Shown: in pieces, positions 7,046 to 55,352 of the stretch | Layout of the letters: each line of letters starts with the position of its first letter | Numbering within the stretch: position 1 is the stretch's first letter | From: Ophiura sarsii | Lineage: Eukaryota > Echinodermata > Ophiuroidea > Amphilepidida > Ophiuridae | Reading direction: 5' to 3' | DNA: 64,000 nt | Assembly (NCBI GenBank): GCA_035610835.1 | Contig: CM069448.1 | Coordinates: forward strand, 3,659,607 to 3,723,606 | Translations under genes and position numbers: made by a program | The notes under the pieces: generated by a model | The model's input: the letters and a program-made list of their open reading frames with translations, nothing else | Database searches by the model: none | What the model was told of the DNA's origin: nothing

Positions 7046-8431
7046 CTATCATCTATCAGATGATTGAACACCATTTATATCGTTGGTGTCTTGCTATCTA
7101 CTGATGATAGCAATGAAACTCAATATACAGATGATATTTAAGAATGCTTTTGCTTTCCATTTACTAAATGAAAGTCTTTTTACAAATACAATAAAGATAA
7201 ATGGCACAAATTAAAATCAATTTGAAAAGAATTTACTTTAATAAAAACTCCCTTCATATTATAATAATTAAGCAAGAACATTGTTGAACGTTGAGGAACC
7301 AATTGTGTGCTTTAATAGAAAGGATAACTACTAATTTGTGACGCGATCAAGAGAAATGAGTCACATGTTGGCAGTTTTGAATTTTGAAATGTGTCTATCA
7401 TTTAAAAGCAGGTAAAAGATGCTTCAGTATGGTCCAAACCCCACTAAAATCGAACTTCTAGTTTTTAAGTTACAAACCCTTTACCAACTGAGAAAACAAG
7501 GTAAAACATAAGAATTTGTCACCTTTTTTTTACCTGTAACTCAAAATCAATATTCCCAACATACGACTCATTTCGCTTGATCGCGTCACATTTGTCTACA
7601 CATCTTACCTGTCTTGTGTAACAACCTATGACTCGATCTCTGCATCAATCTTTTTCTTTCTTCCTATTACGTCATCAGCAGCATCTAAGCACCTCCCTCC
7701 ATAATAATTATACCTCATGACATCATCATCTGAAAATAATAAAGACATTTAATAAAACTTTCTTATATTTTCAAACTTTTCATTAAAGTTGCCCGTAAGG
7801 GAGACTCACACAGTCATAGTTACTCATACATAACTCTTGAAGAGCGAGAAATTTAAGCAAGTAAAACATCCCTAAAGATATCATAATTAAGATTAAGACT
7901 GAAGCACAAATCGGTACAACTGATGGAGTGCCTACACAGCTATAGTTAGCGTCATAATACTATGGACATAATTCCACCAATGTGTGCGTATATGTGTGCG
8001 TGCGTACGAGCATTTGTGCTCGTGCTTACAAGCATATGTACGTAAATCCTGAAGTGCGTACTGGACGATTTAAAAAAATGACTGTGCGTCCTGATTGGTC
8101 AATTGTGAAATCGTCACACGCATGCATGCAAAGTTGTTCGTGTATTTCATGCATTTGGACGCAGCTCCGCAAACAACAACAAATCATGCTCGCGTGAAAT
8201 AGCTTGAATTTCGTCCATAGCATTATGACAATGACTATAACCTCAAAATTTTGTCCAGACTCTCCACTTATAATCGCTATAGGAAGTTTGCACCTCTACC
8301 CATACACTTATATTCTGTTCTACTTTTCCAAATATTACTAGTAATTTACCCCCGGATTTATTGCCAGGCTGTATGCACAACACATAAGCCACAACAAGTG
8401 AGATTTGAACCAACAATTTAAGCTGTACACA
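7046..8431. other. Intergenic, no gene seen
   Basis: AT-rich unique-looking sequence. It contains one imperfect copy of the recurrent dyad at 7093-7111 (GCTATCTACTGATGATAGC) and a purine/pyrimidine-alternating tract near 7980-8045 (TGTGTGCG-type). Short open frames here are no longer than chance. Confidence 0.6.
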
Positions 8432-8794
8432 CACTTAAAAAAAATGGTTCTAAAGTTGTCCTGCCAGGAGAACCCTTTAAGATTCTTTAAATAACCAAAA
8501 ATAGTTCCCCAAACATGATACAGAACCATTTTTGTTTGATACAGAACCATTTTTGGTTCGATGAAGAACCTTTTTGGGTTCTTCAATTTTCAAGAACCTT
8601 TTTTGAAGGTTCTATAAGGAACCTCTCTCTTGAATCTCAAAAAAAGGTTCTTGAAAATTGAAGAACCAAACAAGGTTCTTCATAGAACCAAAAATGGTTC
8701 TGTATCACGTTTGGGGAACTATTTTTGGTTCTTTAAAGAACCTTTAAGGGTTCTCCTGGCAGGACAAAAAAGGGTTCTTTAATTTCTTAGAGTG
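8432..8794. mobile_element. Large foldback (hairpin) element
   Basis: The two halves (about 8432-8590 and 8640-8794) are inverted copies over nearly their whole length and leave a short loop. The arms carry many internal AGAACC/GGTTCT repeats. The ends resemble CACTTAAAA and TTAGAGTG, similar to the Tc1/mariner-like MITE termini elsewhere in the window. There is no coding sequence. Transcribed, it would form a hairpin of about 150 bp. Confidence 0.8.
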
Positions 8795-9896
8795 ATCTGA
8801 GTGACTTGAGAGGTGCGATTGCAGTGGACACAAAACCTGCATGGGTATAGCTTTGAAGTACTTTGCATTTGCTCAAGAGGCTACAGCAGACACCAGGAAC
8901 AAATACTAATACTAGGTAGTATTTTCAATGAAACTGATCTGGGATGCACCACATCAAAAGGGGGCTTTGCAGCTGTGTGTTTTTCAAGATATAGATGAAA
9001 ACGGACAGAAACAAATAAAGAAGATAATAAGATTTAGGAGTCATTTTTACACGTAAAAACCTGAATGCCTTGGTTAATTTGGATAAATTTGGTGTCATTT
9101 TAAAGCTTGGAAAATGCTCTGAGAGCACACATAATAAACTCAAAATTGACTTCACCTGCAAAGTCCCTCTTTTGATGTGCTGCATCACATTATGATTTGT
9201 ATCTTTTATATATAAGGTATACCTTGATAAAGGTAAGTGATTTCTAATCAGGTAAATGTTTATTTGCCACTAATGACATATCCCAAAAGCTCCATGTGTC
9301 ATTTGGAAACCGCTTCAACAGAACCGCTTTAAACCTGTGTGTTTTCAACTGTGTATATAATACCCTGAACCTTGTCACACATGCCAGTAGCACTGCCTAC
9401 AAGGGAAGGGACTTTCCTCTCTATTTGTATTCATCAGATACTCCAAACCGCCTTGTAGCTGCATCACATATGAAAGCCTAAAGATAACTTGCATTATGAA
9501 CTTGCATTGCGGTGAGCGCATATTTGTATCTGGGGCTGAGGCATACAACTTACTATAGCTTTGAGCATACAAGCAATGTCAAAACCAGGAACATGATTAT
9601 TCTTAAACTAAAATGATAAAATGTTTAAAATGTAGTGGACATTTCATCGTGGGAATGCAAGCAAGACTGTTGTAAGTGCCATTTTCTGTCAAATTGAATT
9701 ATTAGTTATTTATAAATGAAAATTGGCAAATCCACTTTTTTAAAGCCATGTTTACAGTCTAAAATTGGAGTTAATTAGTTGTTAATTGTAATTAAGCTTG
9801 TTAAAACAAAATTGAGCACAAAATGCTTTTGCTGCAAAATGACCAAAATAACACTTATGACATTCATAGAAACTTATGAAATTCTTTAATTCCCAT
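8795..9896. other. Intergenic, no gene seen
   Basis: No repeat structure or coding exon with splice signals was recognised; the sequence is AT-rich with scattered stops in all frames. Confidence 0.5.
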
Positions 9897-10080
9897 AGAG
9901 GGTCAGGATGTTCTGAGCGGGATTGTGCTACCATTGTCCCTTCCCAACCCATCCTTGGTCTTGCCCCTTGACAATTACACCCATGCGTAGAGGGTAAAGA
10001 TGTTCTGAGCGGGTTGTGTTACCCTTTGCCCTTCCCAACCCATCCTAGGTCTTGCCCTGTGACAATTACCCCCATGCTGG
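9897..10080. repeat. Two-unit tandem duplication, about 92 bp
   Basis: Unit one starts at 9897 (AGAGGGTCAGGATGTTCTGA) and unit two at 9989 (AGAGGGTAAAGATGTTCTGA). Both continue through a CCCTTCCCAACCCATCC core to ACAATTAC(A/C)CCCATGC. The units are close but not identical. Confidence 0.85.
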
Positions 10081-11438
10081 ACAGACATGATTCACAGGCA
10101 CAGTGATCTCACACTATTACTCATATTTATTGTATGCAAAAAAGTTTGTTTAGTATAGTAGCGGTTTGAATCATGATTCGATACGGATTCAGCATCAAAA
10201 CCCCGGACATGTCAGAAATGTTAGCACTCAAATCATCGTCTTGATTAAAAAATATGTCCGAAGTAATATTAGTTTATCGGATCACATATGTGACAGGAGG
10301 GAGTAAGTTGATACGCGATAGATGATTGCGATGTGACAGGTGATGTGTGCATGATGATATGTGCGGAAAACAGCTGAAATACGCACATTACGGCCAGAAT
10401 TAAATGAATGAGTTGGTGGTTGGTGAAATATTTTGTGCATGAAAAAACGTCTTGTTTTCTATACATTGAACAAAGCAAGGATATGTGCTTAACATTTGAC
10501 TTAGCATTGCATACTGGGGCGCTTAAATAAAGGAATGCCGCATTTAAGACATTATTTTCTTTGGGTCCATATTAAACAGTGGAAGGAAAATGCAATACGA
10601 TACCACTCCCTATGGTTAGATTTTTATTAAGTTTTAAATCTCCATATTTTTTCTACTGAGTTAACTTTTTTTTTAATTTGTGAAGATATTTAATATAGAA
10701 TATTATTTGTGATTCAGAATGACTTTGTTTCGTTGCTCGACCTTTTCTTTGTTGTTTGCATTTTGAATTAAAAGATGTGCGGAACACATCCTCCAGGTCA
10801 GTGTACCAGTACACCCCGGCGCACTATGATCAGCTTAACACTCACAGTGGCTGACCAGAAAAAATAAATAAAAGGGTGCCCAAATATTTTTTAAGTCAGC
10901 TCAGAAAACTTGAGAGAGGGGGAGGCGGTAAGGGCATGTTGTACACTAAACGCCCGCGAAAAATGGTCCTTGTAAATTGTCATAATGCCTATACACACTA
11001 CATCCGGAGACTGGGGCGGGCATAAATCGGGCTGGGGTGGGGGCACAAAGGGCTTTTTTTAGTCAGGAGGGCATTCCTCCCAGGTAGCTACACCACTGAT
11101 GCACGCATTTGCCTTTCAATGTCAAATATTGCCTAAAATTAGCTTAACTTAAGTCTAAAACTAAAGGCATTTCAGACATTTTAAAAGATAATTTAGAGGT
11201 AATTATGACATTAAATGAAACAATTTTGAGGTGACTGGCGGGGCAACAACCATGTTGCTGTCGCTGACCAAGCATGATTAATCAGAGCGGTGAGGTCCGT
11301 GCTTTCACATTATGCACATCATACACTGCAAAAAGAAGCGTTTATATTTCTGATAACACTTAATAAACACTTCAACACGTTTATTTTTGTGTTTTATGTG
11401 TAAAGGTATAGGAGGCATTGCATACGATAAACGTTTGC
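10081..11438. other. Intergenic, no gene seen
   Basis: AT-rich sequence with no recognised exon. A CACTGCAAAAAG sequence near 11335, together with TTGCAGTGTTT near 11570, suggests that the foldback beginning at 11439 may be the inner part of a larger element of about 245 bp. Confidence 0.5.
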
Positions 11439-11578
11439 ATAAACACTACAACACGTTTATAGAGGTAGTTGTGTAATATTTATTAACACACCAACATGTT
11501 TATATCAGCAATAAGAAACATGTTGGGGTGTTAATAATTATACAACAAATACCTCTATAAACGTGTTGCAGTGTTTAT
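11439..11578. repeat. Foldback element with ~63-bp arms
   Basis: Arms at about 11439-11501 and 11516-11578 are inverted copies with a few differences, separated by a 14-base loop. The arm begins ATAAACACTACAACACGTTT and contains TAGAGGTA and AACA(C)CCAACATGTTT. Extra CAACACGTTTAT copies occur just upstream (near 11380). Probably a MITE core. Confidence 0.8.
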
Positions 11579-13363
11579 ACAATTGTTGTGATACAGGTTG
11601 ACCCTAAGGTTAACCTCATGTGACACAATAATATCATTTCAATTGATATCCACCAGCTCCCAGTGCTCCAACAAACAAGGTTTTTTATATTCAGGATATG
11701 CTTTCCTTGGTATTCGTAATTGAGGGGAAAAATAACAGATGTTGGTTAATCCGTGCTTGTATGGAATCTTTTGCAATCCATCTCAAATGATGTACCCTTA
11801 TAAATAATAAATGTTCTAAAACCTTCACCACACACAAGAGGATAAATAGGTTAGCAAATTTGAGCAGACATGTTTTGTATCTTATGAGTTTGGTGGTATA
11901 TACAGCAGGGACAGGGGTATTCTCCTATAAAAAGGAATTTGCCAAAATACGTATGTATCAATGGGATTTCTGCAAATAAAATGCTAAAAGTATAACCAAA
12001 TGTTAGTGAGAAAAAATCAAGAGAAACATATGTCCAATAAAAAAGGTATCAATCAATAATGCTATCTTCAGTAGATTGTGTAAAAATCACTATGGTGTTT
12101 TTCACATATTACCTTGTTAGCATTTCTGGTAGCATGATTATTCTTAATTATTTCTAGAATATAGCATTTTTTATTTAGCTCCCATCCACATTGGATCAAG
12201 TAATATCAAAATGTAAATAAAATCAATCTATACGGAGAACTTAGTATCTCATTCTCCTGTCACGATATTGTTGCAATTCAACAATTAAACTCTGAGGATA
12301 AGACTAATGATACAAAACGCCACTTTTAAACATCATCCATTTAGGCAAATAGTTGAAATGATCATTCATGTGACAGATGTTTCTATTTTGTAATATCCCA
12401 TTTGTTCAATACTTTCTATGAACTAGCTATACATCTATCAGACCTTGTGGCAAAACTCATCATTGAAACGACGACAGTCTTATTAAGCTCAATCCCAATT
12501 TGGGTAAGAAGTTTTATCATCGCCCGAGAGCGAGTGTCACTCGTAAATGTGCTACTCTGAAAATCTTCAACCCCTAAAAAAATCAAGAAGAGAATTATTA
12601 CATGGCACCTAGTAGATCATTTATATAAATACTCGCCTATAGCCCTGTGACATGCCAGTGGGTATGTCATAACATGACAAGCCTATAACATAACGGCTTT
12701 TGTAATTTACTCGACCAAAGAAGCAAAAAGAGGGGGACAGATTCAAAAAGCTGATGAATTCAGAAGAAGAATAAAAATGCCCAGGGCCAAAAATGACACA
12801 GTCTCCCTCAGCACTGTGTTTTGATCATCAAAATTCAATAGCGGAGCTCTTTTCAAAACATGTAATTTGGACAAATTAGACAAGACAGGATCGTGCAACA
12901 ATCAATTGATGTATTGCTCCTATAACCCACTGCGGATATAGCGCTGAAAAGATTTCCCTAAACACACCATGGAAATCTATACACGCTTATTACGATGATG
13001 ATGATAGCGTTATCATGTTGCAGTAGTTTTCTTTTATCAGACTCTTCTTTAGAAAAATCAACTTTGCTGTGTCATTCGCATCTATTGTTTGATCACCACC
13101 CAGAAATAAGATCCAAGTTTCAGATTACGGTGAAGAGATACAACGCCAGCTATTCGTAGTTAGCTAATATTTGTGACAAGGCAAAGGCGAAGTCATACAT
13201 ACGCTACTTGCACGCAATCGCCATTGTATAATGAAAGCAGGGCTCTCCCCCCTCTTATCAGCGCGTTCAACCGCGTCACCCGATGCAAAGCTGCGTGAAA
13301 CCAAGGAGAACAGAAAGACTGAAATGAAGAACAGAAAGACTGAAAGGTAACTTTGAATATGTT
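11579..13363. other. Intergenic, no gene seen
   Basis: No supported exon. A half-dyad GCTATCTTCAGTAGATTG is at 12061-12078. The rest is AT-rich unique sequence. Confidence 0.5.
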
Positions 13364-13552
13364 CAGGTCTGGAAATAGCACCCACCCACCTGCCCATAGC
13401 GTGCAAAAGTACCTGACCGACTGGTGGGTAAACATTTTCAAACTCACAACGTAAATAGTTACAGGGGCTGGTGGAATATGTCGGGCAGGTGGTTTTTTGG
13501 GGAGTTACCTGCCTGACTGGCTGGTTGGAAAAAATCAGAAGTTCTAGCCCTG
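13364..13552. mobile_element. hAT-like MITE, diverged copy
   Basis: Begins CAGGTCTGGAAATAGCACC and ends with TTCTAGCCCTG; the interior matches the element at 6152. The flanking 8 bases (AATATGTT and AATGTTGT) are only partly alike, so the target duplication has decayed or the ends have drifted. A 135-codon open frame across this copy on the minus strand is a by-product of the repeat. Confidence 0.72.
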
Positions 13553-16500
13553 AATGTTGTTTCATAAACAATCAGATACGGTCAACAATTAGTTCACTTT
13601 CTGAACCTTGATGGTGTCAACTATTGATACAACTTAGAAACAGGGTTGACCACTTTGACCACTTGGTGCTACAAATTAAAGTGGTCAAAATTTGAGTGGT
13701 CTAAATTTAAGTGGTCAAAATTGACTCTAATTTGATAAATTGTGTGCGTAATTTGACCTTGTTATTTTAAGAGTGTAAAATCTGAGCACTATGATTGGAA
13801 ACAATTTTAGTATTGTTTTCTTTATTTTGTTTGCTTTGTCAAATCCAAATCTTGAGGCATTCACAAAGTGCAAGAGCAAAAAAAAATCATTAAAATAATT
13901 GAATTGAGAATGGGATAAATGCAATATATTTGTGCATGTACGTATGAGCAAATTATTCAAGTACCATCATAGAAATGCTACTACAAATTGAAATGTTTAC
14001 GTTGTTAATATGATAACATTTTAATTTTTTGAACCGAATATGATGAAAGTGGACATGTCCAATCACGTCTTGTAGTTTGGTGGTCAATCACCCCTGTTAT
14101 GTTACACAAATCTGCTCGATACTTTATCCTAAACCTTAAGGTGCCCCCTCCCCCCAAGTTTTATTGGCATTACAGGCTTAAAAAAATTAGGTTAGGTAGG
14201 TAGGGATTTTTAAGTCACTGCAGTGCCATTCAAAATACCCATAAGTGCAAGTTAATATAAACAACACAATAAACAGGGAGAATGAGGGCGCTGCCATGAC
14301 GATGTAGAATGGTACACTTTCGTACTTATGTTTTATGCAAAATCTCAATTTTCAGGGAGTACTGCTTTCAATGTTTTTTTCATGCAGAAAAAAAGGTTTA
14401 GGGTCGAGCTAAATTTTAGGGCCTAATCAAATATTCCAATATTTGGCTTTGAACATCATCATAATTGCTGCATATTGTTTGTATCATATCTACTGTAAAA
14501 AAAGTTTAGAAAAACATATATGGATTGAAAACACAAATCATTTTGTTGCCAAACTGACAATACAGTTGGTTAAGTACACAAGCCATTAGTCCACAGTCCA
14601 CACGTTCATAAAAGGTAGAAAAATACACTATGGATAGCAAATATAATAGTTAAAAATGTGCGTATGTAGAGCTAAAAAAGAAAAAAATTCAATGGTAAAT
14701 AACAGTGGAGGCATTCACCTAGATCAAGTCCATGGTCGCTGTTTGGTGCCTTTTCTTCTTTAGCAGAAACTAGTGCCAATCATGCTATCTACTGAAGATA
14801 GCACACCTGCAGCACAGTGTCAATCCATATATCGTACACAGCATCACAACGTAACCAATCACGTATTGGGGGCAGCATACCTCGTTATTACCTGGTAAAT
14901 GCTAAATCCCAACGTGCTAGTGCAGGTATTACATGTTGCAATAGAGGAATACATAATGGAGATGGCGTACATCAATTAGTGTTGCTCATACCAGAGTCAG
15001 TAGCAACATTGACAAGTCAATAGACAGATTTTCGATAAGGGGTAGCAGTTCTATAGATTGCCTCGATGCAATCAAGACATTGATGCAATCAACCAGCTAT
15101 TCAATCACCTTGTAGGCAGAGGCAGGCTGGCTATTGGGGCTATTGCCCAATGGGGCAATTGGCTCAGGGTCACTTGGGTTGTTCAATAAGTAAATAAACA
15201 ACAAGCAAAATAGGGGTTCTGACCCTTCCAAATCAGCTTAAATGCAAGGTTTACCTGGTGTTTCACCCCCTGGACCCATCAATGGTCCTTCAGTGAGCCT
15301 CTGGACACATGTTGTGATGCTTGTACTTTACACTCCATGATTTAAGTGAGGTTGAATAACAATTGCCCTAGCCGTTTTTATTTTCTAGTCCGCCCTGCTT
15401 GTTGGGAGATAGAATTGCTTTTGGCTATGCCACTACAGTGACAACACAATACAAGAGGAGAGAGAGAGTGGAGGGAGACATCCTTGTGTTAAACTTTGCC
15501 TTCCTCTACGATTTACCCCAGAAAAGCGTGTCACTTAATGCCCTATATAGTATACAGGTAAATTAGCCCAGGGAACTCAGTACAAATGGCCATTTGTGAA
15601 ACATGCCTCAGTAACATCATATTTATATACATGGGTCTTTGGTAGCAAATTAGTGCACTTTGGACAGATAATTATTTTTTAGGTGATTTTTCAATTTTAT
15701 TCATCTATTTACTTGGGTCACATTTGAACTTGAGCAAAATTAATATAAGTGCCTCCTTCAATTGGATCTATAACCAACAGATAGCAGAATGTTTATCAAT
15801 ACTTAGGACATGGGGACTGGGGAGATCAACATTTGGTTTATGTTCTTTCTACTAACAACCACCACCCGCAAACATACACATGTCCCAAAAATATTAAGAT
15901 ATGATAAATAAAACAAAAATCACACTTTGGAGATAAAATCAACAAAGTATATTCCTAATTTAGCTAATACCTCTTCTACCATTGCTTCCTCATTTCCTTT
16001 GAAGCATCCCAAGATATAAGACTGATGATTAACTAGCACACATAATAATATAATTATAAGTCATCCGTTTCCCAGGACGAACCCACTACTAGGGTGTCCT
16101 ACCCGCTGCGGGCTTATTTACAGAAGTGCTATTATTTCCACAATTGAAAATCCTAATGCTGGCATCAAGTAGTTGATAAATTGGTTTTAAAAGGCATCGA
16201 TACTCTCCAACGGTATCCCATATTCATTAATGCAACAATATTTTTGCATCATCATCAGTCAGCACCATCCTTGATATAGCGTGTGTTATTACGTTAAACT
16301 TGTTGAGGGCACTCTCCATCGTTTCCACGGCACCTTTGAAAGGTAGCCACGTTGCGGGTTATTTACCGACATATAAGAACAAATTCAGGCCTCGTGATGA
16401 GATTGCACCGTTTAGAATTACTAGCCGGTAACGGGTTGATTTGATTTTAGTATCATGCCCCGGGGGTCTATAAGTACTCAGGGCAGGGCCTCGAGGGATG

Positions 16501-17274
16501 TCATCGTTGGTCTCGTGTAAGAAAATTGACATTTTGCATCACCCTCTACCGGTATGCTGCTACATCTTACCCAACAGCAATCATTTCCTGGAATACACTT
16601 TGAAACTTCGTTAAATTTCCTGGGAAAAACACAGTTTTATAACCAATTTATTTCGAAGAAGTATTAAATTGCATAGCGGATCAAGCTAAGTTTCTGTTCC
16701 AAGTACAGATGTCCTGGAATTAAATCTATGAAGAAAACCAAAAATAAATATGCGTAATTCCTCATTTTATATTTAAAAAGAATTTTTGAAAATATTAACT
16801 CATTCCAGTAAAGGCAATGCTTTCAACAGTTACAATAACAACAGCAAGGCCTTTCTAGGAAAAAAATCAAAAATAGTTTTCCATGATTCAAAGTGTTATT
16901 GTTTTTCACTTTATTGACCGTAACGGTTATGCAGATCCCTCATTTTTGCAGCATATTGTTAATTGTCCATGGGTTTACGTTAAGATTTGCTTAGGCGATG
17001 GAAAAAACCCTGTTCTACTGGCAAACGGACCTCTCCGGTAGAGTTGGTTTTATTTTCTAATTTTTGGTGAATGTCTTGGTAAATCTTTTAAAAAAATCAA
17101 AAATGCCAAACAAATTCAAAGTTTCAAGAAATAAATATTAACATCTCAAATTCTAAAGTGTGTGTTGATGGAGTTAATTGAGGATGAATACACATTGGCA
17201 ACATTGGGGATGGACCATGTTGTGGATGAAGCTACAATAGCAACGAGCATGGAGCAAGTTGGGAATGGAGCAAT
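13553..17274. other. Intergenic with repeat fragments, no gene seen
   Basis: Contains a GTGGTCAAA-type repeat cluster at about 13640-13730 and the right end of a CACTCTTAA-type MITE ending near 13777 (TTTTAAGAGTGTA). It also has one perfect copy of the 19-bp dyad at 14784-14802 and, at about 16992-17045, a fragment of the CCCTGTTCTAC-ended repeat family. No exon with convincing splice signals was seen. Confidence 0.5.
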
Positions 17275-17594
17275 CTAAGGCCAAACAAAGAAGAAGGTCT
17301 GTCTCAGAAACATTGTGCAAAAAAGCTAAGTGCTGTGCGATTTTTTTTAAAAATTTTTTTTAGAAAATAGGCTATGAGGTATGCACTTTTTTTGTTGTTG
17401 CTTATCCAAGCTTACGGAGAACTTTTTTTTTTTTTTAATTAAAAAAAAAAATTAAAAAGAAGAAGAAAAAAAAAGAAGAAAAAAGAAGAAAAAAAGAAAA
17501 AGAAAGAAGTTTTTTAGCCCCCAGCGCATCGATCTACGCGCCGTAGCTCATTTCACATACCAATGTGGGCGGGCTTCTTTTGTTTGGCCTAAGG
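17275..17594. mobile_element. MITE with CTAAGGCCAAACAAA terminal inverted repeats
   Basis: Left end CTAAGGCCAAACAAAGAAG at 17275 and the inverted right end CTTTTGTTTGGCCTAAGG at about 17577-17594. The interior is low complexity: a T-run, an A-run and a GAAGAAAAA-type purine tract at about 17415-17510. Confidence 0.65.
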
Positions 17595-17955
17595 AAGAGA
17601 GCAAGCATGGGGGAGAATGGGAGCAGATTTAGAAAGGAGCAATCAGTGTATGTATGTGGAATTTGCATAAGGCCAACAAAAAACAAGGTCTGTCTCACAT
17701 ACATTTGGGAAAATAGCAATGCAATATGTGATTTGTTTAACAAAAAAAGCTATGCTAAATGCAGAAATTATTTCTTATTGTGTTTTGGCCCACTTCTTTT
17801 TCCCCTTTCGGAGCAATTTTTTCATTTTTTTCAGACAACTAAAAAATGCCCAACACAGGGCTCATTGCACAGAGTTATACGGCACAAGTGACTCCACATA
17901 CTTATGCGTGCGGGATAGACGAGACAGATTTGTTTTCCTTGGCCTAATTAAACCT
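17595..17955. repeat. Second, diverged copy of the GGCCAA-ended repeat
   Basis: GCATAAGGCCAACAAAAAAC followed by AGGTCTGTCTCACATAC near 17665-17703 parallels the start of the element at 17275. The sequence at about 17915-17948 is the inverted form (GACAGATTTGTTTTCCTTGG). The flanking GAGCATGG/GCAAGCATGG text before both copies is also similar, so the region looks like a partial tandem duplication of the element. Confidence 0.5.
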
Positions 17956-20900
17956 CTGCGGTTTAACGTTTAGGTCGTTGTATGGATTTAAATCATATAA
18001 CAACTTCATATTGATGACATTGTTGTGCAAGTCTAAAGCTTATAGAGGAATCGTCTCAGTATGAAAACCAGTATTGCTATCAGCAATTGCACCATCTCCT
18101 GTCACCATTGAATGCTGAACAAAAATATTTTAAAAACTCATCCATTAATTTAAAGGATTTTTGAATTGAAGCACTTGGCGAAGGTAACTAATTCTATAAT
18201 TTAGAAAGAACAGGTACGTATTCCTCTGATTACTCTTTCCCATCAGACCTCAATGACATCTATTTTGATCAACTCTAATGTATTAGAAGCTCTGTGATGT
18301 ATGCTTTCTTAATATAATAAATAGTACCTTCCTTCATGTATGGATGACGCGTCAATGATAATTAGAACCTGTCCGTAACAAATACAGAGATGGTGTACCA
18401 TTCACTCTTTCTACGAAAATACAATTGTACTCAAATTTGCTTACAATAACAAATTCCACTGACTAGCGCAGGCTCCCACGGGCAAAAGCCTCCTTGTTTG
18501 ACAATCGTGCGCCACAACGACTCTCACGATTTCACAAGAAAACGTTCAGTTAACCATATCGCATCTAATAATGATGCAGCACAGGCGCCCCCTAGGGTAT
18601 AAAGGTAGTGTCAGGATTGCGGAGGAGTAATACAACTACGGAGAAGACTTATAGGGACCACATACGGTGTAAAAATTGTTTGCTTGGGGTAATGGGCAAG
18701 ATAAATAAGGTTTCATCAGGCGCTGCATTTTCATTCCATCTCAACTACCTTGTTTTACTATTCCTTACAGCATGACAATGTTCAATGTTCAGATCAAATA
18801 AAAATATCAATTAAAGAAAACTATTGAATTCTAACAATTCATGATTGTTTGTGTAATTTTTACCTGATTTCAAGTTAAAAATGTTAGGTTGATGCAATAC
18901 GGGTCCATTAGTTTTACCATACACACAAATATTTTTTTCCAGAAACCTTCCCCAATTGTCAAGGTCTATCTCAAGGATTACTGAACCAATACTAGACATG
19001 TTTGTACTTATTTCAATGCATTTCTCATGGTGATTCCAAATATGGTAATGAAATTCAATCATTTTGACATTTTTGAAACATTTTGTGAAATTTTGGAATG
19101 TTGTCTGCAGACACCTGCCGCGTGGAAAGTGTTATGGTTAGTCCTATGTTACATCCAACCAACTATTTTTAGAGACTTCCATCCTCTACTCATCTGGTCA
19201 GTTATACCGATGCAAAATCACATTTGGGGAGATGAATTCCCCTGAGGGCGCAGTGGAGCCCTGGAGCGCAGCCTCGCATCGAGGCAAGAGAGTGTAGTGG
19301 TACGCGGCACTCAGGTGCAACCATGCGAAACCAGACGGAAGTGATGCCATTAACGGATTGCATGGATACGGTGGTGTCAGCATATGATAGATGCTTGTGT
19401 TAACTCTTGGTCTACCAATACAGTGATACAGTAGTTATATCGCTGACAAACTACCATATCAATAGATTCAGACAGCCTTCAATGACCTAATGACTGGTGG
19501 TCAATTTGTACGCAACTTTCTCCAAATAAATAAGCCCCCCCCCCACCCCCAAGACTGATCGTACTGGAACTCAACATATACATTCAACATGCTCACTGAG
19601 ACTTGAAAGTAATACAAATGCATATCTCTGATTTTTTCTTCTTCGCCTTCCGCGATTTTGTTAGTGAAAATTGTGTGCAAATGTTGACTTATCTGGTTGA
19701 GTTGATCCCGGTTTGCTTGCATAGGTACGTTGTGTCATCGGTCGTCATCTTGCCTTACCACTTACATAGTAGAACTAACTATCTGTAAATATCTTGAGGG
19801 TTTGTATGCTCTATTCCCATGGGACGGTTAAAAGGCCGTCTCCGAAGGCAGGATTTATTTATTCCCGAGGGCATTAAGAATCCTAACCCTATAAAAAATA
19901 CTACAGGAGGATGGATTGGGATGGGATGGACGGAGGTTGGTGGCATGTATGGCCCTCTACTTTTGGAAACACTTGGAAAGTTACACCTATGGAAGTACTC
20001 AAAATGAGCACGGTAAAATAACATGCCTTAAAGCCTGTCTTTTCCCCCATAAGGGTAAGAGCCTGTCTCTTCCTCGAGGGTAAGAGGAACTCTATGAAGA
20101 TTTGGCATCCTGTGACATCACTTTGCACATGGAGTAAAGCTGTGCACCAGTGGCGAGACCAAAGGGAGATAAGCCCCCCCCCCCCCCCCCCCCCTCCACC
20201 TCTGACTATCATTCGGTTTGGTTGAATGCACCCATTCGGATAAATTGAGGGGAATTTAAGTGGTTTTACTCAATTTCTATATCCAATTTCATAACATCAT
20301 TCGGAGGGAATCAAAACCAAATTTAGTATAAAAATAGCAAGTTTTTGCGGGCAACACATGCATGTCAAGGAATATCATTTTAAGCCTGTTTAAATAGTGA
20401 CTAAAAATGTGTGTGCTATTTACACATGTTTTCAGGGAACAGATAAGCGTAATCAGCCAATGGTGTATTTGGCCGGGAGTGGAGTTCCTGCCCCCCCCCC
20501 CCCCCCCCCCCACTGGTGTAAAGTCATTCGGCCAGGAGTGGAGTTCTTGCCAACCCCCACCACCACATAATATCCTGGACATGCCACTGCTGCGCCCTGT
20601 GGATCAAGCTTAATCAGTTCAGGGCATTACAGTAGACATTGTCAAAGATTCCTATTAGAACAGTATAGTTCCAAGTTAGGATGATGGACAAGGGTTAGAA
20701 AGTATATCCCAATTTACTTTTTAAAAACATATAGGATGAAAAGTGGGCCACAGTTCATGAATTTTGTGGAAAAATCAGCTTTTGAGAGGTAGAAAACCAT
20801 TTACCATTTCTTCCTTCAACATTCCCCGGAATCAAATGGTATCAACTTGTACATTTGTGATGTAATTCTTCACATTCCTTTCCCAAATGAATGCATAGAT

Positions 20901-21100
20901 AAACGAAAAATGGAATTGCCTGGTATAAAAAAGATCTTATTATTTGTACATCATGCTGATGCCAAGACTAACCCTTACGCAGCCCTAAACCCCGTGAAAC
21001 CCATTTGAAAACGATGCTGGCACCATGTGTCGCCTCAGACTATCTCGCCGGGCGCTCACGGCAGGTGATAAATGTGCACGAAATTATTAATTACGGGCAT
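17956..21100. other. Intergenic with C-tracts, no confirmed gene
   Basis: No supported exon. Contains a TATA-like site (see 18598), C-runs at 19535-19544, 20174-20194 and 20491-20511, and a local duplication around 20470-20560 (GGAGTGGAGTTC(C/T)TGCC on both sides of a C-run). Open frames crossing the C-runs are artefacts of homopolymer codons. Confidence 0.5.
18598..18603 (+). promoter_or_regulatory. TATA-box-like sequence
   Basis: TATAAA in a locally GC-richer stretch (CGCCCCCTAGGG just upstream). About 90 bases downstream an ATG (18692) opens a 27-codon frame with a hydrophobic stretch (LNYLVLLFLTA), resembling a signal peptide but ending in TGA. A transcription start near 18628 is possible. 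No further exon could be linked, so this is a weak candidate only. Confidence 0.2.
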
Positions 21101-24504: not shown

Positions 24505-24526
24505 AGTTTCAAATTTGTTAGTTTTT

Positions 24527-24532: not shown

Positions 24533-24539
24533 CCAATTA

Positions 24540-41054: not shown

Positions 41055-41371
41055 TAGGTGCCGAAAAAAACCCCACCAAACCTGTTCTACGGGCAAATGG
41101 ACTGCTCAGGTCTGGCAGATTTGTTTTTTTATTTTATAAAATTGTTGGGTTTTTTTCAATGTGAATTTTCAACAATTTTAAAATTGTCAAAGAATGTCAA
41201 AAAATCTTTAAAAATTCCAAACATTTTCAACTTTTATTTAAATTTAAAAAAAAAGTCTCAAAATGTTTCAACAATTTGCAAAAAATATTCTGAACCTTTT
41301 TTGTTGTTGCAAATTTGATTTTCTTTTCATTGGTCGGGCCTGTAGAACAGGGTGTGGTTTTTTCATTGCCT
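41055..41371. mobile_element. MITE of the CCTGTTCTAC-ended family
   Basis: Left end AGGTGCCGAAAAAAACCCCA with CCTGTTCTACGGGC, and an inverted right end GGCCTGTAGAACAGGG followed by TGTGGTTTTTTCATTGCC. The interior is AT-rich with many AAAATTTTC-type words. Fragments of the same family occur near 16992-17045, 44120-44185 and 53695-53770. Confidence 0.65.
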
Positions 41372-41436
41372 GATTAACACAATTGGAACCAATGATATAA
41401 GTGTTTCTGCTGTTATGAGAATCAGCATCTTGGTTA

Positions 41437-41455
41437 GCTATCTTCAGTAGATAGC
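41437..41455. repeat. Single copy of the 19-bp dyad
   Basis: GCTATCTTCAGTAGATAGC, a perfect dyad in the reverse orientation relative to the array at 49 kb, just left of a 26-bp tandem duplication (GCACTACAACT(C/T)AATAAC type). Confidence 0.85.
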
Positions 41456-41495
41456 ACTACAACTCAATAACAAGTTATAGCACTACAACTTAATA

Positions 41496-41737
41496 ACAAG
41501 TTATTACATGGATTTGTACAAACTAACACCAACCCCTTTAAGATCTAAGTACGGATTTTCTATGATTGTCCAAAGGTAAATCCTCTTTTTCTGATACAAA
41601 TTATATTAGAGGACCTGACGTTTCGATTCTAACAGAATCTTTATCGAAGATTTACCTTTGGACAATCATAGAAAATCCGTACTTAGATCTTAAAGGTGTT
41701 GGTATTAGTTTGTACAAATCCATGCAATAACTTGTCA
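41496..41737. repeat. Foldback element with ~88-bp arms
   Basis: Left arm 41496-41583 and right arm 41648-41737 are near-perfect inverted copies, for example TACGGATTTTCTATGATTG on one side and its complement on the other. The loop and the right flank each carry the same 40-base motif in opposite orientation (see the hammerhead-like entry). Confidence 0.88.
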
Positions 41738-41744
41738 TTTTTTT

Positions 41745-41784
41745 ACCTTCGATAAAGATTCTGTTAGAATCGAAACGTCAGGTC
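41745..41784 (+). ncRNA. Degenerate hammerhead-ribozyme-like motif
   Basis: Contains a 5-bp hairpin GATTC-TGTTA-GAATC (41757-41771) followed at once by GAAAC and GTC, the order seen downstream of helix II in hammerhead ribozymes. An inverted copy lies at about 41611-41650. The segment before the hairpin reads TTCGATAAA, not the conserved CUGANGA, so self-cleavage is not expected. It may be a relic of a Penelope-like element or retrozyme. Confidence 0.3.
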
Positions 41785-43640
41785 CTCTTATATTTATTAC
41801 ATTTACTTACACAGGCTATTTTTGTGGATAAGCAGTTTGCATTCAGCTTTTATATTACAAATTATATTATTTATATATAGGCCTAATATCATGTTATATT
41901 CAAAAATCTGTGCAAAAAATATTATTTAAAAGCCATGCCAACAGCAGACCTTTTAATAGTTTTGCCTCATGTAGTTCTCATTTTAAAACACCTTTCTCAA
42001 AAATGGTTCTGAATTAGTTGATAGTCAATTATGAATAAGATACTTGGACACCATTGCAATAATATTTGGATAAACATGACTGATATTTAGAAAAAACATC
42101 CCTCACTTTCCACGCGGCAGGCGTCTGCAGACGACATTCCAAAATGTCACAAAATGTTTCAAATATGTCAAAATTATTGAATTTCATTACCATATTTGGA
42201 ATCACTGTGAGAAATGCATTGAAATAAGTACAAATATGCCTAGTATAGGTTCAGCAATCCTTGAGATAGACCTTTAAAGTCGGGAAAGGTTTCTGAAAAA
42301 TTTGTTTTGTATATGGTAAAACTAATAGCCGGTGGAAAGATTTTGAAAGAACCCTGCATTTTTTCCAAAACATTTTCTCAACCCATATTTGCCCAAGGGT
42401 ACATAAAACCATACCCCATTCTCAAATTATCCTAATGCATTACTAACTATTATTATCTCTACCTAACCTACATTATATTACAATGACATCATGTACTATA
42501 AATAGCAATGACATCATCAATGACATCACAACAGCAGAACCTCCTAGAACTTGCTATTGAAATAATGTTGTGTGTCAGAAATCTATCTCTTCATCTTAAG
42601 TGATCCTACCTACCAGGAAGCAGAAACGAAATTGCTAAATTCTCTCTAAATGCACTGTATAAATATTATGTAAAAATATTGTTTGCTTCCAAGTTTCTAG
42701 AAATTTATGCTTGGCTTAAAATTACAACTTGTATAACACCGTATTCCCAGAGGTAAAGCTTAGTGAAATGGTTTCGCAAAATTAAATTTCTTGGAATTCT
42801 GCACTTCAAACAGCGTACCTTTTCCATTTATGCAACTCTAAATGTGTAATATGCACGTTAAAGTATACCAGGTTAGTATGGTAATGTAAATATATCGAAA
42901 TATAAACATTGAAATTTGATTCCAAATATGTATATATTTATACAATGAACTGCAATACATCTACTATAAATATATTCAGTAATTTATAAAGGCAGTCCTT
43001 TATTACCGAAATATTTTAAACAAACAAATATTTCCGACAGTCCAATCTACAGAAAATGTTCCGTGTGCTTATCTGAATGTCATTTTTAATAACGCTAAAT
43101 ATAGCCATTAAAACGGCTTAAATTGGCTACACAAATGCAGCGCCGAACATGATACTTTTGGTTGCTTCCCGGGACATCTGTCTTGATTATTCCAATCCAC
43201 ATTAATATATGACTCATACTCATAATCATTTCACCATATATGGTATGAAAATTTGTGCTTAAAAACTAGGTGGCTTGCCATCAAAAAGGTCTAAAAATGT
43301 GGTTTTAAACATGTTTTTTAAATACACAGGACTGTAGTATGTTATGTAACCAGTTTAATTTGATCGGTGTTTAGTGTGAACGATGTTTCAATGGGTAATT
43401 AGTATATTACCTATCAGAGCGCCAACAATATGGGGGCGTAAAGCGTTTACAAGCAGTATAACCAAGTCAAGAGATGGCGTACAACGAGTCAATGGCACAG
43501 TGGTTGCTCATCTCGTCACCGTGCATGCATGCATGGATCCATGTGCAGATTAATGGCCAGGGCAAGATGACAGGAAGGTGATAGAGATACGGCCAAAATG
43601 AAAAGGTTGTCCGAAACGGTTAGAATCATTATTTAGGCAT
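41785..43640. other. Intergenic, no gene seen
   Basis: AT-rich sequence. A stretch at about 42105-42300 (CACGCGGCAGGCGTCTGCAG and onward) is an inverted, diverged copy of sequence at about 18880-19130. This shows another dispersed repeat of roughly 200 bp shared between the two places. Confidence 0.5.
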
Positions 43641-43809
43641 ACATTTTTGGCTACAATTTAAGACACATATTTATATTATACATTTTTGGCTACAATTGTA
43701 AGACACATATTTACATAAATTTTTGGCTACAATTTTAAGACACATATTTACACATACATTTTTGGCTACAATTTTAAGACACATACATTTTTGGCTACAA
43801 TTTTAAGAT
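43641..43809. repeat. Minisatellite, ~36-40 bp unit, five copies
   Basis: Repeated ACATTTTTGGCTACAATTT followed by TAAGACACATATTTA; the last unit is shortened. Units differ by small indels. Confidence 0.9.
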
Positions 43810-45592
43810 GTTTTTTTTTCTGTCATCACAAGAACATTTATAAATGAAACAATGTTGTCCGTAAGGGGAAAAAACAAAAATAGGTTTGTTTCCTAAATGC
43901 CTTTTTATTATTATTATAAAAGTGTAGATGGCAAACGCATTCCGGTATTATTATTTGTTATTTTGAAGTTGTGATTCTAGCATAATTTTGCTATGTTGAT
44001 GGTCAAATTACTGCGTTTTTTTAGTACAAATTTGGGGGATTTTTTTGAAAATTTGAGATTTAAAAAAATGTTTTGAAAAATTGTTGAAAATTCACCCAAA
44101 ATTTCCGAAATTAAAAACAACAAAAAACGCCTGACCTACCGACCCTACCTGGGAGATCCGTTTGCCTGTAGAACAGGGTTGTCGCATTTGTGGCCTTTGA
44201 CTGATTTTGATTTTTAGAAAGATCAGGCATTTTGGGTCTAAAATGAGCATTTCATTTAGAGGTTGTTGCATGTGGACTACAGGACAATAACCGGTTTAAT
44301 TTTGTTAACCTAAAAGGAAAGACAAAGTGATCTAAAACCCAATATTAAATGCAATCCTGCAAGTAACCCTTTTTTACAATAAATCATGTTTAATTTATCA
44401 ATGATTTGCAAATAAATTAGTGAAAAAATTTATTAAGAAAGAATCTCATAAAAAGAATAATAAGGATACAAATGACAAACAAGACATATTTTATATTTGG
44501 CCCAACTATATGCCTGGATTAGAGTCACATCTATATGCAGCATATCTAGTTCTGATAATCAATCAATATCGTCATATATAAGTGCCGTGCCAATCCGATG
44601 ACTCGCCACATCAAATCCGATCGTCAAGAACTGAACGGCGGTGGTGTCTTGGCACGGCGACAGTGGCGGAGATTTACCGCCTGGCTTGGGGAGTCAGTGG
44701 GGACGCGATCTCATCCGGCGTCGTTGATTCAATATTAATTCCTCGTGTGTTGTTAATTAATCAATGCAATTTAGCTTGTTTCAGCTGGTTTATACGGTCA
44801 ATTAATGCATATTGACTTGTGTAGTCAGACGGCTGAGTAGGCATCAACAACTTGTTTTCGCGATTCATTTTGTGATTTCAATGGTGTTTTTGATTTTGCC
44901 GTGAAATAGAAATGTGGATGATGGATGCTTATTATTATTTGATTGGATACCCAGTGATGGTCGTTTGTTTGGTAAATACCTATTATTTTGATCATTTATT
45001 AAATGTATGTTATTTGAATCCTTAATGAATAAGCGTATATAACCTAACAATCCTACCCATTCTAGCATGCACTATTAATGTTACTTACTATTTGAAGATA
45101 AATGCTTCATCTTCTAAAGCATGGGTCCTCAACAACAGGTATTCCATGGGAAATGATAATCATCCATTGCACAGTTCTATAAGAACAAAGAAAAACATAA
45201 GAACAAAGTTAATAGGCTGCTTAAGATATTTGTGTCCCTCCATTGCCCCCAAGAACTATATGAATCTGTTCTAAAGATATAGGCCCATTTCCAATTTTTC
45301 GAATTCACTATAACTGGTCTAACTGTCCAATAATGATATACCGGGCGAGTCAAAAACTGCAATATAGTGGAAAGAAGCCACCTAATTTTCAAAAACAAGT
45401 TGAAGTTTGAAATTTCAGAGGCTTCTTTTCACTATTGCATTTTTTGGACTCGCACTGTAAAGATTCTCCTTCCATAAACTTGTTCTTACGTTATCTATGC
45501 CGAATTATTGATGACCACTTTTAAAAGAGTTCCAATTGTTCATTTTGTATACACCTTGTTAAGAAGGGTCAAACTCGCTAGTCATAAGGGTC
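43810..45592. other. Intergenic, no confirmed gene
   Basis: Holds a fragment of the CCTGTTCTAC-ended family near 44120-44185 and the GC-rich inverted repeat at 44584-44658. No supported exon. Confidence 0.45.
44584..44658. other. GC-rich inverted repeat beside a TATA-like site
   Basis: GCCGTGCCAA (44584-44593) and its perfect inverse TTGGCACGGC (44649-44658) enclose 55 bases. TATATAAG lies just to the left (about 44574). The block to about 44715 is the GC-richest stretch for several kilobases. It could be a promoter, a structured RNA or a conserved non-coding element; sequence alone does not decide. Confidence 0.35.
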
Positions 45593-45715
45593 GCTAGTCA
45601 TAAGGGTCGCTAGTCATAATGCTCATTATTTATAATCTGCCCTAACCCTAACTCTAACCCTAACCCTAACTCTAACCCTAACCCTACATTATGACTAGCG
45701 GTCCTTATGACTAGC
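45593..45715. repeat. Telomere-like repeat enclosed by an inverted repeat
   Basis: The core 45640-45686 is made of CCCTAA and CTCTAA units (interstitial telomeric type). It is flanked by 29-base arms, 45593-45621 and 45687-45715, that match as inverted repeats at 27 of 29 positions. The arms are built from TCGCTAGTCATAAGG(GT) units, and an extra unit precedes the left arm. Confidence 0.85.
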
Positions 45716-45857
45716 AGGTAGACCCCGTTTAGAATAATGTAAAGATACAATAGGATTTGATGTATGTGTTTTGTTTGCACATTTTCGTACATAATATTTT
45801 CATAGGTATACATGTTGTTGATTTCTGAATAAATAAAAGAACACTATCACTATCATT

Positions 45858-46036
45858 AAGACCTGGAAAAAGCACCAGCCCGCCTATAGTGGGTACCTTT
45901 TGCATCAGTCGGAGTACCTACCCAACTGGCAGGTAAAAGATTTCGAACTCACAGTGTTAAGTGTGTGGCCGATGGAATCGGCAGTGGGTTACCTGCCCGA
46001 CTGGCTGGTTGAAAACAATCTGGCGTTCCAGCCCTG
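45858..46036. mobile_element. hAT-like MITE with 8-bp target duplication
   Basis: Begins AAGACCTGGAAAAAGCACC (first base changed) and ends GTTCCAGCCCTG. It is flanked by CTATCATT at 45850-45857 and 46037-46044. Directly to the right the sequence CTGCTATCATTATGTTTC is repeated about three times, so the duplicated target has itself expanded. Confidence 0.75.
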
Positions 46037-46143
46037 CTATCATTATGTTTCCTGCTATCATTATGTTTCCTGCTATCATTATGTTTTCATATCAAAGCAT
46101 ATTCCCTATCTTCCTCATGCTCTATTAATATTTTATTTCATTT

Positions 46144-49174: not shown

Positions 49175-51230
49175 TTGGCTTAACCCCAAAATTGTAGCTT
49201 CATCTGGTTTGCTATCTACTGAAGATAGTACACAATCTGTGTAGTTAGTTGCTAACCCCCTATATAGTAGCTTGATCTTGTTTGCTATCTACTGAAGATA
49301 GTAAATAAGCTGCGTAGTTGCTAACCCCGCTCTTCATCTTGTTTGCTATCTACTGAAGATAGTAAATAAGCTGCGTAGTTGCTAACCCCGCTCTTCATCT
49401 TGTTTGCTATCTACTGAAGATAGTAAACAAGCTGCGTAGTTGCTAACCCCGCTCTTCATATTGTTTGCTATCTACTGAAGATAGTAAATAAGCTGCGTAG
49501 TTGCTAACCCCGCTCTTCATATTGTTTGCTATCTACTGAAGATAGTAAATAAGCTGCGTAGTTGCTAACCCCGCTCTTCATATTGTTTGCTATCTACTGA
49601 AGATAGTAAATAAGCTGCGTAGTTGCTAACCCCGCTCTTCATATTGTTTGCTATCTACTGAAGATAGTAAACAAGCTGCGTAGTTGCTAACCCCGCTCTT
49701 CATCTTGTTTGCTATCTACTGAAGATAGTAAATAAGCTGCGTAGTTGCTAACCCCGCTCTTCATCTTGTTTGCTATCTACTGAAGATAGTAAACAAGCTG
49801 CGTAGTTGCTAACCCCGCTCTTCATATTGTTTGCTATCTACTGAAGATAGTAAATAAGCTGCGTAGTTGCTAACCCCGCTCTTCATATTGTTTGCTATCT
49901 ACTGAAGATAGTAAATAAGCTGCGTAGTTGCTAACCCCGCTCTTCATATTGTTTGCTATCTACTGAAGATAGTAAACAAGCTGCGTAGTTGCTAACCCTG
50001 CTCTTCATCTTGTTTGCTATCTACTGAAGATAGTACACAATCTGTGTAGTTAGTTGCTAACCCCCTATATAGTAGCTTGATCTTGTTTGCTATCTACTGA
50101 AGATAGTAAACAAGCTGCGTAGTTGCTAACCCCCTATATAGTAGCTTGATCTTGTTTGCTATCTACTGAAGATAGTAAATAAGCTGCGTAGTTGCTAACC
50201 CCGCTCTTCATCTTGTTTGCTATCTACTGAAGATAGTAAATAAGCTGCGTAGTTGCTAACCCTGCTCTTCATCTTGTTTGCTATCTACTGAAGATAGTAA
50301 ACAAGCTGCGTAGTTGCTAACCCCGCTCTTCATCTTGTTTGCTATCTACTGAAGATAGTAAATAAGCTGCGTAGTTGCTAACCCCCTATATAGTAGCTTG
50401 ATCTTGTTTGCTATCTACTGAAGATAGTAAACAAGCTGCGTAGTTGCTAACCCCGCTCTTCATCTTGTTTGCTATCTACTGAAGATAGTAAATAAGCTGC
50501 GTAGTTGCTAACCCTGCTCTTCATATTGTTTGCTATCTACTGAAGATAGTAAATAAGCTGCGTAGTTGCTAACCCCGCTCTTCATATTGTTTGCTATCTA
50601 CTGAAGATAGTAAATAAGCTGCGTAGTTGCTAACCCCGCTCTTCATCTTGTTTGCTATCTACTGAAGATAGTAAACAAGCTGCGTAGTTGCTAACCCCGC
50701 TCTTCATATTGTTTGCTATCTACTGAAGATAGTAAATAAGCTGCGTAGTTGCTAACCCCGCTCTTCATCTTGTTTGCTATCTACTGAAGATAGTAAATAA
50801 GCTGCGTAGTTGCTAACCCTGCTCTTCATCTTGTTTGCTATCTACTGAAGATAGTAAACAAGCTGCGTAGTTGCTAACCCCGCTCTTCATATTGTTTGCT
50901 ATCTACTGAAGATAGTAAATAAGCTGCGTAGTTGCTAACCCCGCTCTTCATATTGTTTGCTATCTACTGAAGATAGTAAATAAGCTGCGTAGTTGCTAAC
51001 CCCGCTCTTCATATTGTTTGCTATCTACTGAAGATAGTAAATAAGCTGCGTAGTTGCTAACCCCGCTCTTCATCTTGTTTGCTATCTACTGAAGATAGTA
51101 AACAAGCTGCGTAGTTGCTAACCCCGCTCTTCATATTGTTTGCTATCTACTGAAGATAGTAAACAAGCTGCGTAGTTGCTAACCCCGCTCTTCATCTTGT
51201 TTGCTATCTACTGAAGATAGTACACACATT
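49175..51230 (+). repeat. Minisatellite array, 61-bp unit, 33 dyad cores
   Basis: Thirty-three copies of TTTGCTATCTACTGAAGATAG occur at regular spacing from 49208 to 51200. Most spacings are 61 bp; a few are 69 or 73 bp, where CCCCGCTCTTCAT is replaced by CCCCCTATATAGTAGCTTGAT. Each unit continues GTAAA(T/C)AAGCTGCGTAG and TTGCTAACCCC. Two-state variants (TCATCTTG/TCATATTG, AAATAAG/AAACAAG) are mixed along the array. Each core can fold into a 10-bp stem with a 5-base loop. Confidence 0.98.
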
Positions 51231-54200: not shown

Positions 54201-54547
54201 TTAATTTTGCAGTCAAAACTTGTTTAATGAAATATTCAACAAATTAAAAGCACTACAAAAAATATTGCCTTAGCTAGTGTCTGTTACTGATGTTACAGAA
54301 CTAAGCAATTTGCATGCAATGAGGAAACCAAGATTCATCCAGGGTGCTCAATGCAGTATTCCGTTTATGTATAAGCACCATCCTTTTAACCCTGGTGTTC
54401 TCTCTTCGTATTCAGAGGGTAACACAAGATCGTTCCAGGTTCTTGAAATACCCCCCTATTTGACGGTGTTTTGCGTATAATTGTGCTTATTTGACCCCCT
54501 TTTTCTAACACAAATGCGGACATTTTGACTGAAAATAACCCTTTTTT
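51231..54547. other. Region between the two minisatellites, no gene seen
   Basis: AT-rich unique sequence with a fragment of the CCTGTTCTAC-ended family near 53695-53770. A perfect small hairpin, TTTTTTCCTG with loop TCA (about 53762-53785), adjoins it. ORFs up to 98 codons overlap these repeats and show no domain. Confidence 0.5.
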
Positions 54548-55352
54548 CACCAACCTCTCACCTTGTGTGCTTTCTTCAGTAGATAGCAAACCAGAGATAG
54601 GCTACTATTTGGGGTTTAGCAACCTCTCCCCTTGTGTGCTATCTTCAGTAGATACAAACCAGAGATAGGCTACTATTTGGGGTTTAGCAACCTCTCACCT
54701 TGTGTGCTATCTTCAGTAGATAGCAAACCAGAGATAGGCTACTATTTGGGGTTTAGCAACCTCTCACCTTGTGTGCTATCTTCAGTAGATAGCAAACCAG
54801 AGATAGGCTGCTATTTGGGCTTTAGCAACCTCTCACCTTGTGTGCTATCTTCAGTAGATAGCAAACCAGAGATAGGCTACTACTTTGGGTTTAGTAACCT
54901 CTCACCTAGTGTTCTATCATCAGTAGAAGCAAACCAGAAATGGGCTACTATTTGGGGTTTAGCAACCTCTCGCCTTTTGTGCTATCTTCAGTAGATAGCA
55001 AACCAGAGATAGGCTGCTATTTGGGCTTTAGCAACCTCTCACCTTGTGTGCTATCTTCAGTAGATAGCAAACCAGAGATAGGCTACTACTTTGGGTTTAG
55101 TAACCTCTCACCTAGTGTTCTATCATCAGTAGAAGCAAACCAGAAATGGGCTACTATTTGGGGTTTAGCAACCTCTCATCTTGTGTGCTTTCTTCAGTAG
55201 ATAGCAAACCAGAGATAGGCTACTACTTTGGGTTTAGTAACCTCTCACCTAGTGTTCTATCATCAGTAGAAGCAAACCAGAAATGGGCTACTATTTGGGG
55301 TTTAGCAACCTCTCATCTTGTGTGCTTTCTTCAGCAGATAGTAAACAAGATA
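54548..55352 (-). repeat. Minisatellite array, 69-bp unit, about 12 copies, inverse of the 49-kb array
   Basis: Units read GGGGTTTAGCAACCTCTCACC and end with TGTGCTATCTTCAGTAGATAG on the plus strand. On the minus strand each has TTTGCTATCTACTGAAGATAG followed by CACACAAG, GTTGCTAAACCCC and ATAGTAGC. This matches the 73-bp variant of the array at 49175-51230, so both descend from one unit. Some units have a decayed dyad (TCTATCATCAGTAGAAGC). Because 69 is a multiple of three, the plus strand shows long repeated open frames that are not genes. Confidence 0.97.

Follow-up and report, generated by a model that had tools for sequence, protein, structure and literature searches.

A dispersed 21-bp palindrome at the core of unrelated tandem arrays and at single sites in the Ophiura sarsii genome

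A short palindrome, the 19-bp dyad GCTATCTACTGAAGATAGC flanked by a conserved T and A, is present in the 1.57-Gb genome of the brittle star Ophiura sarsii as 20,148 exact copies of the 19-mer, lying in tandem arrays and at single sites that share little else, and tandem copy number differs at two of these boxes between the copies of a segmental duplication. We propose, with a probability of about 0.36, that the 21-bp palindrome is a dispersed, recombination-prone box, probably recognised through its sequence, at which tandem duplication would start; the proposal concerns the birth of arrays and does not cover the dispersal of the box to its single sites. From these observations we infer that the loci number in the thousands, that recognition is sequence specific and that arrays are born at the boxes. 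An earlier account of the same DNA, made from the letters without database searches (the sequence-only reading), had taken the dyad for a portable unit acted on by protein binding, hairpin-induced slippage or a rolling-circle transposon, and our analysis supports that interpretation in part.

The dyad in the window

We analysed a window of 64,000 nucleotides (C8:3659607-3723606 of a 1.5737-Gb assembly) with a GC content of 33-41%. A scan of both strands for matches to GCTATCTACTGAAGATAGC with at most 3 mismatches gave 62 rows, which merged into 51 distinct places, against 0 matches in 100 shuffles of the window at the same threshold, confirming that a 19-bp dyad recurs here. No match to Rfam was found within the window at the gathering threshold. 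The features are as follows:

4..46050, + strand: copy A of a tandem segmental duplication, 28.9 kb of which aligned to copy B
57391..64000, + strand: start of copy B, which extends to about C8:3763600
7093..7111, + strand: single dyad with 1 mismatch (GCTATCTACTGATGATAGC); copy B has the identical mismatch
12061..12079, - strand: single dyad with 2 mismatches, absent from the list of the sequence-only reading; the copy B version has 1 mismatch
14784..14802, + strand: single exact dyad, from the scan for GCTATCTACTGAAGATAGC
23339..23357, - strand: single dyad with the TCTGA loop variant and one arm change (2 mismatches); a perfect palindrome in copy B
38658..38909, + strand: small array of four dyads with its own spacer, at spacings of 106, 21 and 106 bp
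38764..38784, + strand: 21-bp tandem copy (dyad plus TA), in copy A only and presumably gained there
41437..41455, - strand: single exact dyad, also in copy B
41451..41504, no strand assigned: 26-bp tandem duplication, its unit made of ATAGC from the dyad arm and 21 flanking bp; confined to copy A and likewise presumably gained
49211..51221, + strand: minisatellite with a 61-bp unit and 33 dyads, every one GCTATCTACTGAAGATAGT, ending in T
54551..55355, - strand: minisatellite with a 69-bp unit and about 12 units, related to the 61-bp unit and in opposite orientation

The list given by the sequence-only reading was largely recovered. Its single dyads at 7093, 14784 and 41437 were all found by the scan, and the one that it placed at 23340 is present with its start at 23339. 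The four dyads announced near 38.7 kb are at 38658, 38764, 38785 and 38891, and the 33 announced at 49-51 kb are exactly 33 at 49,211-51,221. Its estimate of about 12 at 54-55 kb holds when degenerate units are counted (by TRF the array comprises about 11.7 units of 69 bp), with 9 dyads at 3 mismatches or fewer in the array at 54,551-55,355. It had also set the surroundings of the 38.7-kb array apart from those of the others. The spacer of that array does differ, whereas the arrays at 49-51 kb and 54-55 kb are related to each other: the 61-bp and 69-bp units have flanking sequence in common, forming the best pair of our flank comparison, and by this resemblance the two arrays are diverged relatives.

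Genome-wide abundance

The exact copies of GCTATCTACTGAAGATAGC are divided between the strands as 9,669 and 10,479, while the reversed-sequence control has 0 copies in the same genome and base composition predicts 0.013. The count thus lies far above background. Searching for the arms GCTATCT and AGATAGC with 0-25 bases between them returned 34,032 pairs genome-wide versus 41 in the control; set against the exact copies, this means that the exact ACTGA loop is found in about 59% of pairs. The 100 exact copies listed for the first 8.51 Mb of C1 belong to 25 loci; extrapolated to the genome, this gives about 4,600 loci holding one exact copy or more. Outside the brittle star, a prokaryote collection of 257 Gb contained 2 exact copies of the 19-mer and the viral collection searched contained 0.

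The dyad as a portable core

We examined a locus sample chosen for dyads, consisting of these 25 exact-copy loci from the first 8.51 Mb of C1 and five places with loop variants. In the arrays sampled, the dyad is the constant core, with spacers that are unrelated and periods that range from 22 to about 1,100 bp; at least 10 array types share it with different spacers:

Period 22 bp: L019
Period 30 bp: L029
Period 33/51-53 bp: L027
Period 35 bp: L033
Period 38 bp: L016, L017, L024, L028
Period 44/49 bp: L011
Period 58-60 bp: L013
Period 126-131 bp: L032
Dyad-bearing unit of about 1.1 kb: L014/L018
Periods 61, 69 and 106/127 bp: arrays of the window
One dyad only: L020-L023, L034, L036

Loop variants have arrays of their own, ACTGT in L032 and TCTGA with its relatives in L029. 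Among 33 representative sites, the first base outward of the dyad was A in 58 of 66 flanks, and little conservation was seen past it. As the flanking T and A are conserved, the unit is about 21 bp, T-GCTATCT-ACTGA-AGATAGC-A. An element boundary shared by the single copies, which the sequence-only reading had suggested looking for, did not appear, only the T and A being conserved beyond the 19 bp at these sites.

We also counted the words that recur in the sample, where 144 13-mers and 99 15-mers occur in at least five loci. Pieces of the dyad have the highest number of unrelated flank contexts (up to 10-12), and the only non-dyad words among the best 25 of each list were SINE-end words, with 3 contexts each. 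Since the sample was selected by the dyad, these counts show that the dyad is portable and not that it is the sole portable word of the genome. A SINE-like repeat of about 235 bp is present in the window at 18899-19134 (+) and 42104-42339 (-) and in 9 of 20 loci compared, its flank varying after GTGGAAAGTG.

The view of the dyad as a portable unit rather than a part of one repeat is therefore upheld by the flank contexts. The further idea that it did not spread as whole units is right only in part: the 61-bp and 69-bp arrays are kin, and the 38-bp type was found at 4 sampled loci. The copies did not prove to be fragments of one ordinary transposon: they do not form a single transposon consensus, even though some array types look element-borne.

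The segmental duplication as a natural experiment

The window contains copy A and the start of copy B of a segmental duplication that is arranged in tandem at a period of about 57 kb, parts of 4-46050 recurring from 57391 into the next 40 kb. The aligned part of copy B ends opposite 46050, so the 61-bp and 69-bp arrays sit between the copies. Substitutions between copies A and B amount to 3.96% over the 28.9 kb aligned. If the rate given for A. filiformis in PMC11310086 (1.885e-9 per site per year) applied, the duplication would be about 10 million years old; that rate may not be the one of the host. An LTR retrotransposon of Ty3 type with a chromodomain (26972-35295), with 462-bp LTRs that are 100% identical, is not in copy B, which has the empty site. 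Its nearest named relative comes from Patiria miniata, with 77% identity over the scored piece of reverse transcriptase.

All 6 dyad loci of copy A are present in copy B, with 0 of 6 gained or lost, and a search of copy B at 3 mismatches or fewer returned no dyads beyond those of copy A. Such retention would be expected if selection kept the dyad as a chromosome-wide binding site with a centromeric, architectural or regulatory function, by analogy with the 19-bp box of Meloidogyne holocentromere repeats, whose length class and position as a core shared by divergent repeats it resembles; that the 25 loci formed by the exact copies listed are scattered along the first 8.5 Mb of C1 would suit this too. 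We nevertheless regard it as quite improbable, because the five single sites differ between copies A and B at 2 of 95 dyad positions (four sites scored by script and the fifth read from the alignment), which is no different from 3.7% (p 0.31), and because the pooled divergence of the box within arrays equals that of the spacer, as detailed below.

In the number of tandem copies the two halves do differ. The 38.7-kb array has three dyads 106 bp apart in copy B versus four in copy A, and two tandem copies at dyads, of 21 bp at 38764 and 26 bp at 41451, are found in copy A only. The more natural direction would be a gain in A and not a loss in B. Among the 30 indels of at least 12 bp in the 28.9 kb aligned, 7 resemble their neighbours locally and count as tandem-like; dyads are touched by 2 of these 7 (random placement, p 0.018) and by 2 of the 5 that reach at least 20 bp (p 0.011). 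The dyad-free ones of at least 20 bp are 41 bp at 43673, 120 bp at 9923 and a weak case at 24350, the first two falling inside dyad-free tandem repeats. A narrower test, with 10 tandem-type indels of at least 8 bp and 2 on dyads, gave p 0.0068, but the narrower tests (p 0.0014 to 0.0068) missed the 43673 and 9923 indels in dyad-free arrays.

The key step of our proposal thus rests on two events, one within an existing dyad array and the other copying only 5 bp of the box. Against the proposal, 3 of the 5 tandem-like changes of at least 20 bp lie away from dyads, and the single dyads have no excess of duplication, with tandem duplication at 1 of 19 of them versus 7 of 300 random places. Nor does the box, within arrays, stand out clearly from the spacer in its conservation.

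Hairpin versus sequence

Hairpin-induced replication slippage alone, for which an 8-bp stem would suffice and common descent by itself would account for the shared sequence, is an unlikely explanation of the arrays. It could account for the two tandem changes on dyads, and the 21-mer indeed folds as DNA at -6.2 kcal/mol (z -5.1). Other hairpins with a stem of at least 8 in the same loci were in tandem repeats in only 2 of 31 cases, both in one array (31 being what is left of 35 once 4 dyad variants, 3 of them in arrays, were removed by eye), compared with 14 of 29 dyad loci; as other hairpins are rarely in arrays, slippage alone is disfavoured. Compensatory changes of the arms did not appear either, double changes being at or below expectation in 7 of 7 pairs among 130 distinct variants, in a test that is limited to variants with at most 4 mismatches and so biased against double changes. 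Descent alone also leaves the unrelated flanks unexplained. Together, the hairpin comparison and the lack of compensation modestly favour recognition of the sequence over a bare hairpin. Among the mechanisms listed by the sequence-only reading, putative sequence-specific recognition is hence the one that gains, and slippage by itself loses ground.

We also compared box and spacer within arrays. An ungapped alignment of units had suggested that the box is more conserved than the spacer, an exaggerated picture: with gapped wrap-around alignment of 13 arrays, the pooled rates are equal (333/6447 substitutions in the box versus 563/11064 in the spacer). Array by array, the rate of the box is below that of the spacer in 11 of 13 and above in 2, five of the 13 belonging to the 38-bp type. 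Substitutions along the box follow a symmetric pattern (rank correlation 0.78); the mutational contexts of a palindrome are symmetric as well, so this symmetry may be partly mutational. Neither the substitution rates nor this symmetry establishes selection on each copy of the box.

Possible carriage by transposable elements

The boxes could also be internal or subterminal sites, such as transposase-binding sites or central-array repeats, of several families of non-autonomous DNA transposons, foldback elements or Helentrons, the arrays being parts of elements and the single boxes their worn-out remnants. Taken as a joint explanation this is possible but rather doubtful; for part of the copies, element carriage is a serious rival. 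The 38-bp arrays recur at L016, L017, L024 and L028, in three cases with inverted arrangements; each of the four is near a 42-bp array element, as the single box at L045 is near 42-bp-like repeats. Moreover, L010 and L026 have in common a dispersed repeat, about 1 kb long, in which 5-6 boxes are found towards one end. A parallel is offered by the oyster Helentron/HINE elements, which, according to PMC7492417, have central satellite-like arrays and a palindrome at the 3' end of the element, outside the repeats. The brittle-star dyads resemble them in combining dispersed short arrays with a short palindrome, and differ in that the palindrome lies within the units and that the search around the sites examined revealed no element ends.

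Some searches around the sites tend against elements. The terminal inverted repeats and target-site duplications of a cut-and-paste DNA transposon or MITE were looked for: inverted repeats within 1.2 kb of 29 sites were at most 16 bp long (a figure without shuffled control), target duplications were not detected at 20 single sites (p 0.26), and the 38-bp array loci did not resolve into elements with defined ends. No palindromic extension was found at single sites. Decayed dyads near singles, allowing up to 4 edits, numbered 4 in 14.4 kb versus 7 in 60.5 kb, a weak difference. The 401-bp surroundings of 14784 had 3 matches, namely itself, a local duplicate (92%, dyad kept) and a 46-bp piece with another dyad; these surroundings appear to be low-copy as far as the search sees, which may miss very common words. 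We looked for an empty site of 14784 in the paralogue, and the paralogue keeps the dyad.

Flank pairs scoring at least 9 numbered 5 versus 0.6 expected among the 33 representative sites, one of the 5 consisting of the two window arrays and one of two sites of a single locus. One-sided flank families were considered as element ends, and one case was tested: CCAATCAT next to the dyad occurs 3 times genome-wide, with about 1 expected by hand estimate. The flank-family reading was dropped since two of these 3 copies are the pair that had suggested it. With no conservation past the T and A, and 3 copies for the one flank family tested, the proposal that the dyad is the end of a rolling-circle transposon is not supported.

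A proposed recombination-prone box and its precedents

For our preferred proposal, the simplest putative recogniser of the box would be a two-fold symmetric DNA-binding protein, perhaps derived from a transposase. Breakage or fork stalling at the box would produce a small tandem duplication that includes neighbouring DNA, and unequal exchange would then enlarge this initial duplication into an array. Duplication of neighbouring DNA followed by unequal exchange would give arrays with a common core, each with its own spacer and its own period.

A variant that we hold to be very unlikely is that the palindrome itself spreads, as a selfish box of about 21 bp that a putative enzyme of the host or of transposon origin nicks or copies. 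Single insertions into unrelated DNA would come first, and neighbouring sequence would later be dragged into tandem arrays. Bacterial REP palindromes, which are short, dispersed, alone or clustered, are moved by HuH (RAYT) proteins. The brittle-star dyads, known here from sequence, are likewise short, dispersed and single or clustered; if the selfish box were true, it would be a eukaryotic counterpart of REP palindromes and a general source of minisatellites.

The mammalian CENP-B box is centromeric and is not known to be palindromic. The dyad is similar to it as a word recurring in unrelated satellites; recognition by a protein is a feature of the CENP-B box, which is described in PMC3694981. 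The closest precedent is given by the conserved boxes of Meloidogyne satellites, where PMC3694981 and PMC9673304 describe a conserved Box 1 (17 bp, CENP-B box-like) and a 19-bp box in divergent repeats, also attributed through them to Despot-Slade 2021. Monomer junctions are reported to lie at the box in these satellites, and protein binding with a transposition-like rearrangement has been proposed (PMC3694981, PMC9673304). In both systems, likened by description and not by sequence, one short word is common to otherwise divergent tandem repeats (at least 10 array types here). Unlike the Meloidogyne boxes, the brittle-star word is a near-perfect palindrome with a very wide range of periods and is present at the extrapolated 4,600 loci, some of them single copies in unrelated DNA; the palindrome and the singles in unrelated DNA are what is new here. 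Searches by title and abstract opening and by the exact 19-mer text found no literature on this motif, which does not imply that there is none.

How new families of satellites and minisatellites originate is a long-standing question. One 21-bp palindrome in many unrelated arrays and at single sites would provide thousands of replicate loci at different stages, so that array birth at a known sequence could be tested directly. Should the box be recognised by a protein, satellite birth would be linked to a defined factor, a link that is proposed, not proven, for CENP-B box-like motifs.

Other features

The 42-bp array element was seen at L016:3270-3560, L017:5174-6495, L024:2800-5010 and L028:4600-5720, with 42-bp-like repeats beside the single dyad at L045; its end at L028, and in diverged form at L016, reads ...GGTTAACTCGTCATGACCCTTCAGGGC or a close variant. 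In the dispersed repeat at L010:3371-4785 and L026:2653-3546, a TATA-like sequence is preceded, at a distance of about 300-530 bp upstream, by the five or six dyads. The window also has a 100-N assembly gap (47367-47466), a run of 39 C (48858-48896) and interstitial telomere-like CCCTAA/CTCTAA repeats (45575-45700), which adjoin TCGCTAGTCATAAGGG repeats on one side and an inverted copy of part of TCGCTAGTCATAAGGG on the other.
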